Shown here in pieces: positions 4,871-18,341 of a stretch of 23,755 nt of DNA; position 1 is the stretch's first letter, and each line of letters starts with the position of its first letter. Below the pieces are notes generated by a model, which did no database searches, was not told the origin of the DNA, and worked only from the letters and a program-made list of their open reading frames with translations. This stretch comes from a virus. The position numbers and the translations under genes are program-made. The DNA is taken from positions 1 to 23,755 of IMG/VR virus record IMGVR_UViG_3300046454_000363. One strand, 5' to 3'.

Positions 4871-6166
4871 TTACGAGCGTTGCCACACATGTAGACCCTT
4901 GTACCAGGGGACGATGATTTCCAGTGTGACCTGACTCACGTTCGCGTTCGGACTCCCGTCGCTGGTCAGTACCTCGAGCGCGACCTGGCTGACGCCGCCA
5001 CCCGTGAACGAAACCTTGAGCGTCGGCTGGTAGACGACCGTGTTGGAATCGATGAACGGGACATCGAACTCGACCGGGTTGACAATCGGCGTGTAGACCA
5101 CCGTGAGCGATGAGATGAAGCTGGGGCTGGTCGAGTAGACGAGCGCCGGCGTGTAGACAGTGCTGCTGCTCGAGATGAACGGCGCGTAGAGGTCAGCCGC
5201 GACACCGGGTGCGTAGACAACGGTGTTCGAGGAGATGAAGGGGACGACGACGGGGAAGGACGGCGCGTAGACGACGGTCTTGCTGGCGATGAACTCGTTG
5301 ACGATCGCCGTCGTGATCTCGACGCTGCCAGCGGCACCATTCCCTGCGCTAGCGGACTGTCCGCCACCGCCTGCGCCGCCGCCGGGTGAGGTGCCGTTGG
5401 AGCCACCACCGAAGATGAGTCCACCGTCGCCGCCGGACCCCCCACCATTCGCTCCTGCCGCGCCAGTCCTTGAGGTGGCGCTCGCGCCCGTGGCGAGCCT
5501 GTTGCCGCTCGCACCGCCACCGCCGCCCGTACCACTGCCTGCCTGGGTGAAGCCATCGCCGCCTGAGAACTTGGTGTCACCGATCGACGATGCTGCCGCG
5601 CCTCCCGGTCCACCTGATGCCGGGGCCCGGTGTCCGCCACCGCCTCCCTTGGCGAGAACCTGGGTGCTGCTGTCCCCGGTGAAGTACGAGTCCCCGCCGG
5701 TGGTGCCAACATCGGGATCGCGAAGGCCTGCCGCACCGACGACAAGCGTGTACAGCACCCCCGGCGTGACCGGGATTGCCGTCTTGAGCGCGTAGGCACC
5801 GCCGCCGCCGCCACCGCCGCCTGCGAGCGCTCCTGATCCGTCAGCGCCGCCGCCGCCGCCGCCGATTACCTCGACGTAGACCTGGACTATCCCAGGCGGA
5901 CACAGCCACTGGTAGGTCCCCGCCACGACGACCGTCGTCTGCTGTCCCGTTACTGCGAATGTAGGGGCCTGGACGGCAGTTACGGACGAGATGAAGGACG
6001 GGAAAACCTGCCCTGGACGTAGCTCCGGGGCGTATAGAGCCGTGACCGATGAGATGAACGACGGTAATACGTCGCTCGTACTCGTCTCGAGAAGATAATC
6101 GCCGCTCGCGTCCTCGAGGATGAACTTGCTAGTTCCGTCCTCCTCGCGGACGTAATAGTCGGCCAC
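4871..6166 (-). CDS. glycine-rich tail adhesin-like protein with FISS repeats
   Basis: A 431-residue protein starting at GTG 6166. Residues 1-30 are a short head (MADYYVREEDGTSKFILEDA). Two repeats of the form PSFISSVTALYAP lie at about 35-70. A glycine-rich domain spans about 80-285: it opens with GTYQWLCPPGIVQVYVEVIG and contains many poly-Gly runs. Five more repeats (NEFIASKTVVYAP, PFISSNTVVYAP and relatives) fill 290-382, and two VSQVALEV/VSQVTLEI motifs close the protein. The W-x-CPPG-x-x-V-x-V-E-V-x-GGGG opening is characteristic of glycine-rich phage tip domains. In such adhesins the Gly-rich loops contact the host receptor. Position among tail-tip genes supports this; the receptor-binding role is inference. 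Confidence 0.68.
   Translation of the reverse strand: MADYYVREEDGTSKFILEDASGDYLLETSTSDVLPSFISSVTALYAPELRPGQVFPSFISSVTAVQAPTFAVTGQQTTVVVAGTYQWLCPPGIVQVYVEVIGGGGGGADGSGALAGGGGGGGGAYALKTAIPVTPGVLYTLVVGAAGLRDPDVGTTGGDSYFTGDSSTQVLAKGGGGGHRAPASGGPGGAAASSIGDTKFSGGDGFTQAGSGTGGGGGASGNRLATGASATSRTGAAGANGGGSGGDGGLIFGGGSNGTSPGGGAGGGGQSASAGNGAAGSVEITTAIVNEFIASKTVVYAPSFPVVVPFISSNTVVYAPGVAADLYAPFISSSSTVYTPALVYSTSPSFISSLTVVYTPIVNPVEFDVPFIDSNTVVYQPTLKVSFTGGGVSQVALEVLTSDGSPNANVSQVTLEIIVPWYKGLHVWQRS
5021..5296 (-). repeat. FISS-type protein repeats, second block (5 copies)
   Basis: Five copies of the unit (F-I-x-S-x-T-V-V-Y-x-P core) are encoded after the glycine-rich domain. They are spaced about 18-22 residues apart, each followed by a variable linker of about 5-10 residues. 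Same repeat family as the block at 5957-6064. Confidence 0.62.
5957..6064 (-). repeat. FISS-type protein repeats, first block (2 copies)
   Basis: Two copies of the (P)SFISSVTA-x-x-AP unit are encoded here, about 21 residues apart, before the glycine-rich domain of the adhesin-like gene. They are protein-level repeats; the DNA copies have diverged. Confidence 0.6.
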
Positions 6167-13296: not shown

Positions 13297-13713
13297 TTAG
13301 GTGGCAGCGCCGGACTGGATGCCGTTGTCGTCCGCGGCCATGAACGTACACGGGAACACCTCGACGCTCCCGCGGGTCACGGACGGGCCGAACTCGTACA
13401 TCTTCACGTTCCCGTAGTACACCTCGCGGGACGGATCGACGAGGCCATCCGGCTGCCACGTCAACTCGAACACCGTCGAGTTGTCGAACAGCGGCTTGAG
13501 GAGCGCATACACCTCGGGCGTGTAGAACGCCTCGCCCTCAAACGACTGCGTGATCGCACCGGGAAGCGTCTCGTTGCGTCCCGACACCGAAAACCCACTT
13601 ACGTCCTCCTGGGTCTTCGTGTTCGGCTGACCAAAGCTGCGGAACGCGTTCGAGCAGTCCTCTCCATCGATCATGATCTTGTCGTGCAGAGCGATGCTCT
13701 TGGTGAAGGTCAC
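13297..13713 (-). CDS. major tail protein (tail tube)
   Basis: GTG 13713 stands just after AGGAGG. The 138-residue protein is beta-rich: MTFTKSIALHDKIMIDGEDC, TQEDVSGFSVSGRNETLPG, ITQSFEGEAFYTPEVYALLK, then DNSTVFELTWQPDG and REVYYGNVKMYEFGPSVTRG, closing VEVFPCTFMAADDNGIQSG. The W-x-P-D-G, GNV and final PCTFMAADD strands follow the usual order of siphovirus tube proteins. Position before the chaperone and tape measure genes, its own strong ribosome site and the hairpin behind it fit a highly expressed structural protein. Many copies stack to form the tube. Confidence 0.72.
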   Translation of the reverse strand: MTFTKSIALHDKIMIDGEDCSNAFRSFGQPNTKTQEDVSGFSVSGRNETLPGAITQSFEGEAFYTPEVYALLKPLFDNSTVFELTWQPDGLVDPSREVYYGNVKMYEFGPSVTRGSVEVFPCTFMAADDNGIQSGAAT

Positions 13714-13721
13714 TTTCCCTC

Positions 13722-13973
13722 CTAACTCATTGCTCGCGAGACGCTTGCGTCTCTGGTTGTTCCTTCATCGGCCGCGTCCTGCGGCCAATCTTCGGGCGGC
13801 AGCGCATAGCTGCCATTCTCCAGTTCTGGCTGGACGCTGTCGATCACGCGGATGGACCCGCGCTCAATCGCTCGCTGCTCCGCGTCCGGGTCGAGTCTCG
13901 CCTCAAAGATGGTCCCCGGCTTGTGCCAGCGGTACTGGCGCTTCCCGGTGACGAGGTACCGCTTGTACTTCAC
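13722..13973 (-). CDS. hypothetical protein, 83 aa
   Basis: ATG 13973 overlaps the stop of the last cassette gene as ATGA. The product begins MKYKRYLVTGKRQYRWHKPG, a basic, aromatic strand-rich N-terminus, continues TIFEARLDPDAEQRAIERGS and IRVIDSVQPELENGSYALPP, and ends in an acidic, disordered tail. The N-terminal pattern (beta strands, then a helix that starts with LDPDAEQRAIERG) resembles small phage head- or tail-associated proteins. No known family is certain. Its coupling to the glycan cassette and its position just before the tail tube gene leave open whether it belongs to either group. Confidence 0.6.
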   Translation of the reverse strand: MKYKRYLVTGKRQYRWHKPGTIFEARLDPDAEQRAIERGSIRVIDSVQPELENGSYALPPEDWPQDAADEGTTRDASVSRAMS

Positions 13974-14734
13974 GCCGCGGCCGCCTTCACGCCGAAGTAG
14001 TGCTGCTCCATCTCCTCGAGCGACTCGGCGTCGTAGTACGGCGTGAGCGCGGTGAAGGGATCATCCCCAACCTCGGAAGTCCTCAGCGTGGTCACGCTCT
14101 TGTAGGCGTTCAGCTGCTCTCCACCCGTCTTCCAGTCCACGATCTGGTAGTCGTTCATATGCCAGTGGCGGATGTCGAGCTTGTCCCCATGCTCGCGGCG
14201 GATGTTGGTGAGGATGCTTGTGTCGCAGCCGCGCTCGCGATCCTCGTCGGCGGGTCGGTAGTCGAGCGGGGCGACGAGCTCGCGAGGGATGATCCTGATC
14301 CCCGACCCGCCCTGGTAGTCGAGGAACGTGGTCGAGATCTCACGCCCGTCCTCGCGCACGAACGCCATTCGCTGGAACCCGAAGATCTGGTTGCGGTTCG
14401 GCAGGGGCTCCGCGAACAGTCGGTAGTCGGCCCAGTCGTCGCTGCCGAACGGGACGACGAAGTCCGCCGGCGCGGGGTTGAACTTCGGGTCGGTCGCCAG
14501 TTGGATCCCGTCGTTGAAGCGGCGGCTTGTGAACTGGTTGTCGCGCCGGACCCAGCCGAAGCCGAGCTCGCCCACGTTCAGAACGTCGAGCGTGGCGGCG
14601 TCCGAGATGACAACCGCTGTCGCCTTCACGCCGCGCTCGAGCAGAGCATCGCATGTCCGCCGAAGGTGGCGAAGGCAGATCTTCGTGAGGCCCAGCCTGC
14701 CATGAACGGGGACGACGAACCAGAGCGTCCTCAT
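13970..14734 (-). CDS. GT-A-fold glycosyltransferase-like protein (cassette gene 6)
   Basis: ATG 14734 overlaps the deacetylase stop as ATGA. An upstream in-frame ATG at 14770 lies inside that gene and adds only a Gly/Arg-rich leader. The 254-residue product opens MRTLWFVVPVHGRLGLTKIC, the first strand and helix of family-2 glycosyltransferases, where V-P-x-H/Y-x-R is typical. AVVISDAATLDVLNVG is the second strand. NQFTSRRFNDGIQLATDPKF is the N-x-G...A helix. VVPFGSDDWADYRLF supplies the DxD-like metal/nucleotide motif (residues 98-100). The C-terminal part is acidic. Donor sugar and acceptor cannot be read from the sequence. Confidence 0.7.
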   Translation of the reverse strand: MRTLWFVVPVHGRLGLTKICLRHLRRTCDALLERGVKATAVVISDAATLDVLNVGELGFGWVRRDNQFTSRRFNDGIQLATDPKFNPAPADFVVPFGSDDWADYRLFAEPLPNRNQIFGFQRMAFVREDGREISTTFLDYQGGSGIRIIPRELVAPLDYRPADEDRERGCDTSILTNIRREHGDKLDIRHWHMNDYQIVDWKTGGEQLNAYKSVTTLRTSEVGDDPFTALTPYYDAESLEEMEQHYFGVKAAAA

Positions 14735-15546
14735 GCGACAGCCTTCACCGGAACGAACGCCTCGGCCCACCAGTCCGGGTGGATCAGGAGGTGCAGCTGC
14801 TGTGGATGCTTTGACCGGCGCGGCAGATCTGTCACCTGTGTCTGGGTAGCGAACCTAGTCGCCGTCTCCTCAAATCCAGGGTTGAACCACCGGCCACCAG
14901 AGTCGCTGCAACGCCACGACCACGGCTGCGCTGACCAGAGCGCTTCGTACTCGAGGCCGAAGTCAGAGAGCGGACGAGGAGAAAGTTTCAGCGAAATCTT
15001 TCCCCTGGCGATGATTCGATCAGCTTCGCCGTGAGCAGGCCGGCGGCACTCAGCGAACTGCTCGTCGTTCGCGAACGGACTCTCATGCGGCTCCCTGACT
15101 CTCAGGCAGATCTCGTTTCCGTGACCGGCCACGCCCCGAACCGGGTAGCCGAGATCGCGCAAGCGCGTGATCGCTCGCTCGAGGATCAGGTCGGGATCAT
15201 CTCCCGTGACCAGTGACTCCGCGAGCGCGTCAGTGTGGATGCCGATCTCATGTCCGCACTCTGCGATCTCCTGCACGGCACTCGGGAACCCGACGTAGCT
15301 CCAGTACGGGGACGTGTGGAGCAGGAAGTAGGTGGAGCGGTAGCCGCGTTCGGCTTCCCAGTGCGCCATGCTGACCGCGGTCCGAAGCGAGTGGGCGGCA
15401 TCGCAGTCGTGGCGCAGGCCGATCACGTTCGGCTCGCGAGCTCCAGCGACCACGTCTTCCATCGCTACGACTCGAGCAGCCTTCGCATAGAACACCTCGT
15501 CAAGCTCGTCCAGGTCGTCGGCCTGGAAAGGTGCGCCGTACCTCAC
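14731..15546 (-). CDS. polysaccharide deacetylase-like protein (cassette gene 5)
   Basis: GTG 15546 overlaps the upstream stop as GTGA. The 271-residue protein has the NodB-type motif order: GLRHDCDAAHSLRTAVSMAH (Asp47/Asp49), RGYRSTYFLLHTSPYWSYVG, and ECGHEIGIHTDALAE (His99, His104), then a later VAGHGNE segment (His142). This matches the RHDVD...STYFF...GHEIGLH family found in surface-polysaccharide loci. The metal-binding Asp and both His residues are present, so it should be active as a de-N-acetylase or related hydrolase. It lies among glycosyltransferase-like genes, consistent with trimming an N-acetyl sugar. Substrate unknown; no signal peptide, so it acts in the cytoplasm. Confidence 0.75.
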   Translation of the reverse strand: MRYGAPFQADDLDELDEVFYAKAARVVAMEDVVAGAREPNVIGLRHDCDAAHSLRTAVSMAHWEAERGYRSTYFLLHTSPYWSYVGFPSAVQEIAECGHEIGIHTDALAESLVTGDDPDLILERAITRLRDLGYPVRGVAGHGNEICLRVREPHESPFANDEQFAECRRPAHGEADRIIARGKISLKLSPRPLSDFGLEYEALWSAQPWSWRCSDSGGRWFNPGFEETATRFATQTQVTDLPRRSKHPQQLHLLIHPDWWAEAFVPVKAVA

Positions 15547-16142
15547 GCCGGCAGCCCGTCGCGGATCTGCCGCGCCCTGCGGATCGCCTCGGTCTTCTGC
15601 TCAACCGCATTCGGCAGGTTGCACATGCGAGTCTCGTCCTCGGCGCATGGCAGAGCATCGAAGCGGAGGTCCAGCTGGATACTCGGGGTGATGACGCCGA
15701 TGATCGTGTCGCACCAGAGGCGGAAGAACTCGTCGTCCGGCCACTCGTTCAGGTACTCGTCGATCGCGTCTTCCCACATGTCGACATGGCTGATCGACCC
15801 CGAGCCTGGGAAGACGAGGTCGTCGTAGCCGTTCTCGATGCCCTGCTCCTTCGCGCCGGCGGACCAGTCCTCCCACATGCAGCCGACGAGGTACGTCTGC
15901 TGGTACGCGCCCAGGATCTTCATCTGATTCTCGGGCGTGTGGATGATGTCGTCGTCCTGGCTGTAGATGATCTTGTCGTCCGCCTCGCGAGCGCCGACGA
16001 CGCGCCCGTATGTCATCTGGTTCTCGCGGAGGCTGTTGTCGTAGACGACGACGTTCGGGAAGATCAACGATTCGTATATCGGCGTCAGGTCGACATCGCC
16101 CTTCGTCACGATCACGGCGGTGACATCAGACGGTGTAAGCAA
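15543..16142 (-). CDS. GT-A-fold glycosyltransferase-like protein (cassette gene 4)
   Basis: I place the start at TTG 16142, because GGAGG stands 6 nt upstream, inside the 3' end of the preceding gene. A GTG at 16115 is the fallback (190 residues instead of 199). The protein reads LTPSDVTAVIVTKGDVDLTP and then IFPNVVVYDNSLRENQ (first and second strands of a GT-A fold). KIIYSQDDDIIHTPENQMK carries the DxD motif (residues 63-65). Later, FPGSGSISHVDMWEDAIDEY and PDDEFFRLWCDTIIG give the acidic motif where the catalytic base usually lies. Closest in style to family-2 glycosyltransferases; substrate unknown. Confidence 0.68.
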   Translation of the reverse strand: MLTPSDVTAVIVTKGDVDLTPIYESLIFPNVVVYDNSLRENQMTYGRVVGAREADDKIIYSQDDDIIHTPENQMKILGAYQQTYLVGCMWEDWSAGAKEQGIENGYDDLVFPGSGSISHVDMWEDAIDEYLNEWPDDEFFRLWCDTIIGVITPSIQLDLRFDALPCAEDETRMCNLPNAVEQKTEAIRRARQIRDGLPA

Positions 16143-16737
16143 GGATCTCCTCCAGGCCGAGCATCTCTTCCTTGTGGCGCTCCCACAGTTCGGGCCGCAC
16201 GTCCGTCTTGGTCCGTTGCAGCGGATGGTCGCGGTAGATCGAATGGACACGCCCGGACGCCGAGAAGTTGAGTCCAGCCAGTGCCATGCGCCGCCACAGC
16301 GCCCAGTCCTCATGGCCGACGGTGGGATAGCCGCCGACGAGTTCCCAGGCCTGCTTGCGGAACGCGCTCATGCTGGGGTACGGGTTGCCGAAGTTGGCGA
16401 GGTAGTCCGCGTTGCTCATGGCCTCGGGGACGATGTCCTGCTTGCCGCTCCGCATTCCCATCAGCCAGACTTGGGCGTCCTGCTCCTCGAGGCCGGCCAG
16501 CGCGTCCGGCAGCGCCAGGTCGTCCACGTTCAGCGGCCAGACCCAGTCGGTGGCGACCTTCGCGATGGCCTCGTTCAGCAGACGGGCCTGCGGGTAAAGC
16601 TCCCCTTCCTTGAGCAGTCCGTGGTGGAGGATCACGTCGTCTGCCGGCGGAACCATCGCGTGGAGTGACCGTCGCCAGTCCATCTCGAACTGCCAGTAAT
16701 CGAATCCGTAGATCACGGCGACGACGGTGACGCTCAT
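16126..16737 (-). CDS. family-2-like glycosyltransferase (cassette gene 3)
   Basis: ATG 16737 overlaps the upstream stop as ATGA. The longer in-frame reading to 17193 lies over another gene and is Arg/Pro-rich. The 203-residue protein opens MSVTVVAVIYGFDYWQFEMD (first Rossmann strand). ARLLNEAIAKVATDWVWPLN followed by VDDLALPDAL (residues 71-73) is the N-E-A-I-x-x-A...D-x-D core of family 2. AFRKQAWELVGGYPTVGHED then WALWRRMALAG matches the GGY-x(3-5)-(E)D-W-x-L-x-x-R motif of the acceptor site. Both halves of a GT-A glycosyltransferase are therefore present, in a protein slightly shorter than usual. No membrane segment, so the enzyme is cytoplasmic. Confidence 0.8.
   Translation of the reverse strand: MSVTVVAVIYGFDYWQFEMDWRRSLHAMVPPADDVILHHGLLKEGELYPQARLLNEAIAKVATDWVWPLNVDDLALPDALAGLEEQDAQVWLMGMRSGKQDIVPEAMSNADYLANFGNPYPSMSAFRKQAWELVGGYPTVGHEDWALWRRMALAGLNFSASGRVHSIYRDHPLQRTKTDVRPELWERHKEEMLGLEEILAYTV
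16147..16153 (-). promoter_or_regulatory. ribosome binding site pointing to a TTG start
   Basis: GGAGGAG on the minus strand, 4 nt before TTG 16142, lies inside the end of the upstream glycosyltransferase gene. No ATG in this frame is near. The site supports TTG over the internal GTG at 16115. Confidence 0.6.
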
Positions 16738-17381
16738 CGCTCCCACCTGATGTCGCCCTCGCGGAACCCGGTCTTCTCCTTGTAGTAGCGGAGTCCGTCG
16801 GTGCCCGAGTCCCAGCGGTTGTAGTAGAGCCAGCCGCCGAGGTGAGACTGCTGCTCGACCATCCCGGCGAAGAGGAGGTACATGATGTCGTCCGTCAGGA
16901 AGTTGCCGTGTCCGAGGATCATCGAGATCAGGACGAGCTCGTTGATCCGGTAGACGCTCATGTAGGCGACCAGCTTCGGCTTTAGCCGACTTATCGTGAC
17001 TCCGTAAGTTCGGATCGCGTGGCGCTCGCACGGATAGTCGGGCAGCTTGCCCTGCTGGTGGTATTCGACATATCCCGCGGTCATCGGCCGCCCCTGGCGC
17101 GTCGCGAGCGACGTGTTGATGTCGAAGACATCGTCGCTGTGCTGGCTGAGGTCGACGGGAGCGAACCTGTACCCGAGTCGTTCCGAGCGCCACGCCCTCT
17201 TACGCGCAGTCCGATGATCGGCCTCCCACGCCTCGCGGCTCTCGGGCATCTCCATGAGCGCCGCGCCCTGGCGGTACTTCGTCTTGTCGACGGTGCCCCG
17301 GATCTTCTCCATCAGCGGGACGCAGAAGACGCCGTCGTTCTCGCAGTCACCGAGGAGACGGATCGTCGTCGAGGTCGCCAT
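16734..17381 (-). CDS. GNAT/FemAB-like acyltransferase (cassette gene 2)
   Basis: The start at ATG 17381 lies 1 nt after the stop of the methyltransferase-like gene (TGAGATG). The 215-residue product has a first half of charged helices (WEADHRTARKRAWRSERLGY), with VFDINTSLATRQGRPMTAGY matching a conserved (D/H)TS...RQGRPM...Y segment of a GNAT-type family. The second half has typical acyltransferase strands and helices (LVAYMSVYRINELVLISMIL, then FLTDDIMYLLFAGMVEQ), and ends in YYNRWDSGTDGLRYYKEK followed by TGF, like the C-terminal K-x-x-GF of GNAT proteins. It may acylate an amino sugar made by its neighbours. That role is inferred from context, and the acceptor is unknown. Confidence 0.6.
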   Translation of the reverse strand: MATSTTIRLLGDCENDGVFCVPLMEKIRGTVDKTKYRQGAALMEMPESREAWEADHRTARKRAWRSERLGYRFAPVDLSQHSDDVFDINTSLATRQGRPMTAGYVEYHQQGKLPDYPCERHAIRTYGVTISRLKPKLVAYMSVYRINELVLISMILGHGNFLTDDIMYLLFAGMVEQQSHLGGWLYYNRWDSGTDGLRYYKEKTGFREGDIRWER

Positions 17382-17382
17382 C

Positions 17383-17868
17383 TCAATCACGGTGCAGCAC
17401 CATCCACGACACTTCGTCGTTGCGCGGGAACATGTACGAGCTCCAGCCAGGAGGGGCGAACAGTTCGCGGTCGGCGGCGACGGTGAGCGTGACGATCTTG
17501 TCGGCCAGGAGGGGCCAGAGGTGGCGAGTCTCCCATGCCTTATCGGAAGCGTCACCCATGTACGGGTCCACGCTGACCACGTCCCAGGTGCGGCCAGAGG
17601 CTGCGGCGTCGGTCGCGAAATGCCACGCATCCTCGACCCAGAGTTCCAGGCCGGCGGGGTAGATCGAAGCCATCTCGAAGAGCTTGTCCTTGTCCACGTC
17701 CACGCACGTCACGCGCATGTCATTGCGGACCATGTGGATCACGTCGTTCCAGCCGAGGAAGCCGGCCGAGAAGAGGCAGAGCGCCGTTCCCCCGTTCGGC
17801 AGCACGTTCGCCGGGTAGACCTGGGCGTTCCGGTTGATCCGGTCGAATGTCGTGGCCGTTGCGTTCAC
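17383..17868 (-). CDS. class I SAM-dependent methyltransferase-like protein (cassette gene 1)
   Basis: I chose GTG 17868, 2 nt after the stop of the tail-terminator-like gene; the longer in-frame reading to 18909 lies over two structural genes and is Arg-rich. The 161-residue protein has a Rossmann core: TALCLFSAGFLGWNDVIHMV (motif I glycine turn at 33-40), RVTCVDVDKDKLFEMASIYP (acidic Asp at the end of strand 2), LELWVEDAWHFATDA, and WDVVSVDPYMGDASDKAWET (motif IV at about 101-106). It ends in a small beta hairpin (YMFPRNDEVSWMVLHRD). Fold and motif order are those of class I methyltransferases, somewhat short. The target (sugar, protein or DNA) is not readable. It has no DPPY or other DNA-methylase target domain, so a small-molecule or glycan target is more likely. 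Confidence 0.65.
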   Translation of the reverse strand: MNATATTFDRINRNAQVYPANVLPNGGTALCLFSAGFLGWNDVIHMVRNDMRVTCVDVDKDKLFEMASIYPAGLELWVEDAWHFATDAAASGRTWDVVSVDPYMGDASDKAWETRHLWPLLADKIVTLTVAADRELFAPPGWSSYMFPRNDEVSWMVLHRD

Positions 17869-17870
17869 GA

Positions 17871-18341
17871 TCAGCTTTGCGTCTTGACGACGACGATTTT
17901 CATCTCGGAGCCGGCCAGTGTCCCGTCGCCGTTCGCGTCGAGGTATGCGGCCACGCCGGCCCACGGGTATCCGAAGCCCCACGTCAGCGAGTCGCAGACA
18001 CCGCCGAGCGTCCGGTCGGCGTCCAGGGCGGCGACGATGGACAGCAGTCCGATCTCGTCCATCATCCCGTAGAGAAGCTCCTGGCCGGCCTCGCCGTCGG
18101 CCATCCCGACACGGGCCCGGATCATGATCGGCACCGCGCCGTAGCGAGTCTCCGACCCGAACCCGGCAAGACCGTCCTCGAGGCCGGTCGGGTTCGTCGG
18201 GAACATGTCGACGGCCGGCATCTCCGCGATGGGAAACCACATCGGTTCGATGTGAACGTCGAAGTCGGTGTTCGCCTGGATCGAATCCTCCAGCTGCCCC
18301 GCTATCGCCTGCAGGATCTCGACGTTCGTCGCCAGCGCCAT
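17871..18341 (-). CDS. tail terminator-like protein with EF-hand-like loop
   Basis: ATG 18341 abuts the upstream TAG. The 156-residue protein begins with a helix (TNVEILQAIAGQLEDSIQAN), followed by HIEPMWFPIAEMPAVDMFPT and a central beta region (RYGAVPIMIRARVGMADGEA, then GQELLYGMMDEIG). Size, order of helix and strands, and position between the head-tail adaptor and the tail genes fit a tail terminator or neck protein. Near the C-terminus, residues 135-146 read DANGDGTLAGSE, a perfect 12-residue EF-hand-type calcium loop (D-x-N-x-D-G-T-L-x-x-x-E). Role from gene order; the loop is seen directly. Confidence 0.62.
   Translation of the reverse strand: MALATNVEILQAIAGQLEDSIQANTDFDVHIEPMWFPIAEMPAVDMFPTNPTGLEDGLAGFGSETRYGAVPIMIRARVGMADGEAGQELLYGMMDEIGLLSIVAALDADRTLGGVCDSLTWGFGYPWAGVAAYLDANGDGTLAGSEMKIVVVKTQS

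Follow-up and report, generated by a model that had tools for sequence, protein, structure and literature searches.

A candidate virion-glycan cassette, exchangeable as a block, among the structural genes of uncultured phages

A conserved gene block within the structural operon

We analyzed a block of six genes in the IMG/VR phage record IMGVR_UViG_3300046454_000363, whose full 23,755 bases are hereafter called the window, and conclude that it is probably (about two chances in three) a late-expressed virion-glycan cassette. The block encodes a methyltransferase-fold protein (MT), a FemX-like transferase, three GT-A or GT-A-like glycosyltransferases (GT1, GT2 and GT3) and a NodB-like protein. 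In favor of this conclusion, the cassette always lies among virion genes, including in the relative L045, where the outer genes have been relocated between terminase and portal and GT3 remains near the terminator and tube with the small gene that follows it. A sequence-only reading of the window had proposed virion glycosylation from operon placement; the constant association with virion genes agrees with that prediction, and glycosylation itself, like the virion as glycan target, the substrates and the reaction order, is something we infer.

Scans of viral contigs baited with GT3 yielded 28 contigs, not counting near-duplicates of three of them, and the FemX-like, MT, NodB-like and GT3 genes occurred together in 28/28, with GT2 in 22 and GT1 in 10. 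Further contigs came from a bait unrelated to the block, the capsid, and in the pooled set, counting those contigs that extend at least 300 bases past a terminator, the FemX-like or MT gene stood right after the terminator in 38/40. MT had no match in L084 and L122, and L098 has a small open reading frame (ORF) and a collagen-like protein at the cassette position. The survey that the sequence-only reading had called for found these genes recurring as a unit in dozens of distinct contigs. Conservation of GT3 is on a par with that of the capsid across the group (mean pairwise identity 58% versus 61%), with the tube (47%) and terminator (42%) below both. Purifying selection acts on each of the six genes (median dN/dS 0.16–0.21 among seven relatives). 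Sampling of 397 genomes from the host phylum turned up no GT3 copy other than that on the phage contig.

The positions of the six genes and their surroundings in the window are as follows, with profile and structure evidence (AF2, AlphaFold 2) where it defines the call.

17871–18341, minus strand: tail terminator-like gene, upstream flank (PHROG 17840 tail terminator, E 1.6e-4)
17383–17868, minus strand: class I methyltransferase-fold protein, MT (GTG start; AF2 and Foldseek)
16734–17381, minus strand: FemX/GNAT-fold transferase, candidate aminoacyl- or acyltransferase (AF2 and Foldseek)
16126–16737, minus strand: GT1, GT-A glycosyltransferase (NVDD, HEDW; PHROG 9549)
15543–16142, minus strand: GT2, GT-A-like glycosyltransferase in a variable slot (QDDD; TTG start with GGAGGAG ahead)
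14731–15546, minus strand: NodB-like (polysaccharide-deacetylase-like) protein (RHDCD, GHEIGIH; invariant residues)
13970–14734, minus strand: GT3, GT-A-like glycosyltransferase, universal (GSDD; weak profile match to 3bcv)
13722–13973, minus strand: small conserved protein coupled to GT3, directly after it in nearly all relatives
13297–13713, minus strand: tail tube-like gene, downstream flank (PHROG 4574 in 1/10 homologues, and position)
14801–17869, no strand: segment exchanged relative to phage L022 (DNA identity breakpoints)

The window has a late-type gene order, with its main genes all on the minus strand: terminase, portal, protease-like, capsid (identified via 28% similarity to Mycobacterium phage MooMoo), connector and tail terminator, followed by the six-gene block, the small gene (13973–13722), and tail tube-like, chaperone-like and tape measure genes. 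That six coupled genes lie between the terminator-like and tube-like genes was confirmed by the ORF positions, the shared minus strand, and the junctions, at which neighbors overlap or are separated by a few bases; no convincing internal promoter, terminator or repeat was seen in the block. The tube call rests on the match of one in ten homologues to the PHROG 4574 major tail protein (E 0.002) and otherwise on position ahead of the chaperone-like and tape-measure-like genes. The small gene, which sits between GT3 and the tube gene, moves together with GT3. No membrane segment was detected in the six block proteins (best 19-residue hydropathy ≤1.44), upholding their proposed cytoplasmic nature. 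Farther along the window, a tail protein at 4871–6166 with PHROG tail matches carries about seven copies of an FI(S/A/D)SxTxVYxP-like motif around a glycine-rich region.

Block exchange around a constant glycosyltransferase

Starting at the portal, the DNA of the window and L022 matches at 94.7% as far as base 17870, where the terminator gene ends; identity is 88.6% from 14800 on, and between these breakpoints the two share only fragments of 69–80% identity. One edge of the swap coincides with the stop codon of the terminator gene and the other with the end of the deacetylase-like gene. Between the edges, the L022 cassette lacks GT1 and has its genes in a different order, with protein identities of 37–51%, and the swapped cassette genes are closest to those of other phages or clades. 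GT3 is 95% identical in this pair and remains with the phage backbone despite the swap. Because GT3 stays while the outer genes are exchanged, we suggest that it starts the glycan and that the exchangeable genes build the outer part.

The slot between the MT and NodB-like genes varies among relatives. Some fill it with GT1 and GT2, others with GT2 only; L014 has a GT-B enzyme there (Pfam Glyco_trans_1_2, E 1.2e-5), L017 a second methyltransferase, of canonical type (Pfam E 6e-9), and the slot can also be empty. The swap and this variable slot replace the earlier picture of one fixed sugar pathway with that of a modular, swappable cassette.

GT3 homologues also occur in another phage type (L027, 5721–10738; L047, 868–5945), between terminase and portal, accompanied by a canonical methyltransferase and another glycosyltransferase, which ties the GT3 family to structural operons generally. 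L027 carries the label of a Myxococcales bin but reads as phage.

Hosts and relatives

A genome bin labeled Actinomycetota (L026) holds a phage contig of this kind, and this label together with the capsid similarity to MooMoo suggests that the hosts of these soil phages are actinobacterial. The GT3, GT2, FemX-like and NodB-like proteins had no match among INPHARED phages, and scanning the six proteins and their families against Pfam, NCBIfam and PHROG yielded little. A phage integrase was found in 3/15 related records (L016, L031 and L043; G302, G309 and G312), and some members of the group may be temperate.

Two other features were observed in the relatives. Six of them (L015, L017, L020, L030, L037 and L040) have an insert of roughly 3–5 kb between the capsid and connector genes, and collagen-like Gly-X-Y proteins are encoded in L018 (2333–5608), L098 (5351–6298), L105 (4377–5069), L039 (8162–9316), L024, L014 and L045. 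Some of these lie within or next to the cassette, and the window has none.

Predicted functions of the encoded proteins

The three glycosyltransferases proposed by the sequence-only reading fared unequally, GT1 being established by profile whereas GT2 and GT3 are supported more weakly. GT1 matches the PHROG 9549 glycosyltransferase (E 1.1e-11) with D72 and D73 invariant, and its homologue in L011 matches PF13641 (E 1.3e-5). Neither GT2 nor GT3 had a Pfam match above cut-off. The QDDD of GT2 is invariant in 23 sequences, its homologue in L039 matches PF00535 (E 0.004), and weak PDB profile matches at the DDD loop are to a beta-1,3-glucosyltransferase and heparosan synthase B (E 0.08–0.9). For GT3, the profile matches the 3bcv glycosyltransferase over the DXD region (E 0.012), and among 30 sequences G97 and D99 are invariant and GSDD nearly so. 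A DHDPS identity for GT3 was rejected, as the Pfam match was weak, below cut-off and not common to the family.

The NodB-like protein has R45, H46, D47, D49, H104, H142, G143, D215 and H256 invariant in 28 homologues. It shares with NodB/CE4 deacetylases the Asp motif (motif 1, here the pair D47 and D49), GHEIGxH and an LxH-type motif, but differs from them in lacking the second histidine of the HxxxH motif 2, since position 108 is not His in the family, in falling below the curated cut-off (PF01522, 12.6 bits versus 23.1) and in giving no clear match in PDB profile comparison. The polysaccharide-deacetylase-like assignment is thus borne out in its invariant Asp and His residues and not in the full metal motif or a curated match, and deacetylase activity, judged from these patterns, is not certain. 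Cellular NodB-like relatives with an RHD(V/I)D signature occur in Actinomycetota, one of which (L130) adjoins a group-1-like glycosyltransferase and an ATP-grasp-like ORF.

The model of the FemX-like protein (AF2; mean predicted local distance difference test score, pLDDT, 94.7) combines a single GNAT-type domain with a shorter N-terminal region. Its top Foldseek matches are the aminoacyl-tRNA-dependent Sbb17/Sba18, FemX and MprF, and the PDB matches with E ≤0.001 are mostly FemX, MprF/PGS or Sbb17/Sba18; the matched Sbb17/Sba18 structures were solved with streptothrisamine. The proposed GNAT/FemAB-like fold is supported, with aminoacyl-tRNA-dependent transferases as its nearest neighbors, and as most structural neighbors are of this kind, the earlier assignment of an acylating role is probably too narrow. 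An aromatic residue (F/Y) at position 200 in 26/28 members is followed by K201 in 28/28. In sequence pattern, this pair resembles the active-site residues FemX Lys305 and DhpH-C Phe328-Lys329 (PMC12945691). In common with FemX and Sbb17-type transferases, then, the protein has the fold, along with a residue pair that may correspond to theirs; it differs from them in being phage-borne, only about 215 residues long, and without a sequence match to curated families in Pfam, NCBIfam and PHROG scans. A pyrophosphate-loop-like pattern typical of acyl-CoA loops (R/Q-x-x-G-x-G/A) is present in 9/28 members, and an acyl-CoA donor is a conceivable alternative to aminoacyl-tRNA. Cellular relatives retrieved with a FemAB profile were discarded: these matches rest on a single DDIRxxNWxAxxRxGRPMSNxY-like stretch in long unrelated ORFs, which, read by eye, we take to be DUF58-type proteins.

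MT was modeled with similar confidence (AF2 pLDDT 94.4) and matches S-adenosylmethionine (SAM) methyltransferases in Foldseek with E values down to 1.6e-7, which bears out the class I methyltransferase-like fold. Among 28 homologues D57 and D101 are invariant, and the acidic residue after strand 2 (D57) is retained. The family lacks the Gly-rich motif I of class I SAM methyltransferases, the place of this loop being occupied by an F-x-A-x-F-x-G-x-x-D pattern. We therefore describe MT as a methyltransferase-fold protein with putative methyltransferase activity. The earlier claim that active-site motifs are intact is too strong for the NodB-like protein on account of its absent second HxxxH histidine. 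Cellular matches to MT exist at E ~1e-4. A UDPG dehydrogenase identity was dismissed, the Pfam match being weak, below cut-off and not common to the family.

Comparison with known virion-glycosylation systems

Virion glycosylation by late-operon cassettes of glycosyltransferases and methyltransferases is already known from mycobacteriophages of clusters O and J. The cluster O phages Corndog, Firecracker and Catdawg encode an O-methyltransferase and three glycosyltransferases between portal and protease (PMC4351075), a cassette that is stated in PMC11600133, citing Freeman 2023, to modify the capsid and tail tube. As in our block, that set is cytoplasmic and inside the structural operon of actinobacteriophages; unlike it, it lies between portal and protease rather than after the terminator and has no FemX-like or NodB-like gene annotated, and hhalign comparison with Firecracker gp33–gp36 found no homology of the glycosyltransferases or MT in the pairs compared. 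Cluster J phages carry a variable glycosyltransferase/methyltransferase insert (PMC3706429), in Courthouse, Omega and Thibault located in the late operon between capsid and connector, and its content varies between relatives, as is the case here. The enzymes differ, yet the glycosyltransferase near the GT3 homologue of L027 shares ~41% identity with Courthouse gp21 across half its length.

The block resembles both kinds in having glycosyltransferase genes within a structural operon and a companion methyltransferase-fold protein whose fold is confirmed. Because of these precedents, the placement itself of a methyltransferase and several glycosyltransferases within a structural operon is not new. 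What looks new is the FemX-like and NodB-like pair as near-constant partners, the spread of the cassette in uncultured phages, and the clean block swap.

Proposed pathway and alternative explanations

In the pathway that we propose, GT3 would act in the cytoplasm and attach the first sugar to a conserved structural protein, by analogy with cluster O perhaps the capsid or tail tube, and GT1 and GT2, or another slot enzyme, would lengthen the glycan. The NodB-like protein would then probably free the amino group of an N-acetylated sugar, the FemX-like protein could load the freed amine with an acyl group or with an amino acid taken from aminoacyl-tRNA, and the methyltransferase would cap the product. 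Exchange of the outer genes as a block would alter the surface chemistry while acceptor and first enzyme stay constant. A more specific version, in which the FemX-like and NodB-like proteins act in series so that a virion sugar first loses its N-acetyl group and then receives an amino acid from aminoacyl-tRNA, coating the particle with amino-acid-bearing sugars whose outer chemistry is block-swapped, is possible but offered tentatively; no aminoacyl-tRNA-dependent virion modification by a phage was found in the literature searched.

Several findings weigh against a virion-glycan cassette. No nucleotide-sugar gene was recognized within the block, GT2 and GT3 are matched only weakly to glycosyltransferase families by sequence, and catalysis is putative both for the NodB-like protein, without one canonical metal histidine, and for MT, without canonical motif I. 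Effects on a lysogen are also conceivable, since these phages are uncultured and integrases occur in at least three relatives. In the main rival, the cassette changes a glycan of the cell wall or surface of its actinobacterial host, whether infected or lysogenic, which might for instance exclude superinfecting phages, with the FemX-like and NodB-like proteins acting on peptidoglycan or wall-polymer precursors. FemX and peptidoglycan deacetylases work on cell-wall material, and the FemX fold of the block protein, the cellular NodB-like relatives in Actinomycetota, one adjoining glycan-type genes, and the integrases all fit this account. We nevertheless consider it unlikely, given a cassette always tightly coupled among virion assembly genes, with no membrane or secreted component and no lipid-carrier or flippase-type gene seen, and a GT3 with no copy outside the phage contig in the genomes sampled from the phylum.

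Decoration restricted to a tail fiber or accessory collagen-like protein, rather than capsid or tube, would suit the Gly-X-Y proteins in or near the cassette of several relatives (L018, L039, L098 and L105), but such a protein is missing from the window and from most full-cassette relatives, whose records are incomplete, and we regard this as improbable. Some phages carry sets of base-modifying glycosyltransferases and acyltransferases, so the enzymes might instead glycosylate and further modify phage DNA bases; with the cassette placed in the late operon and apart from the replication genes, and no thymidylate-synthase-type base hydroxymethylase in the 15 related (incomplete) records, this is very improbable.

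As a virion-glycan cassette, the block would extend a phenomenon documented in few phages to a group in which sugar building is practically a core virion module, with deacetylation-like and FemX-like transfer chemistry that is unreported for virions in the literature searched. Its constant acceptor and first enzyme, combined with exchangeable decorating enzymes, would make it a natural system in which selection on the glycans of soil virions becomes testable.

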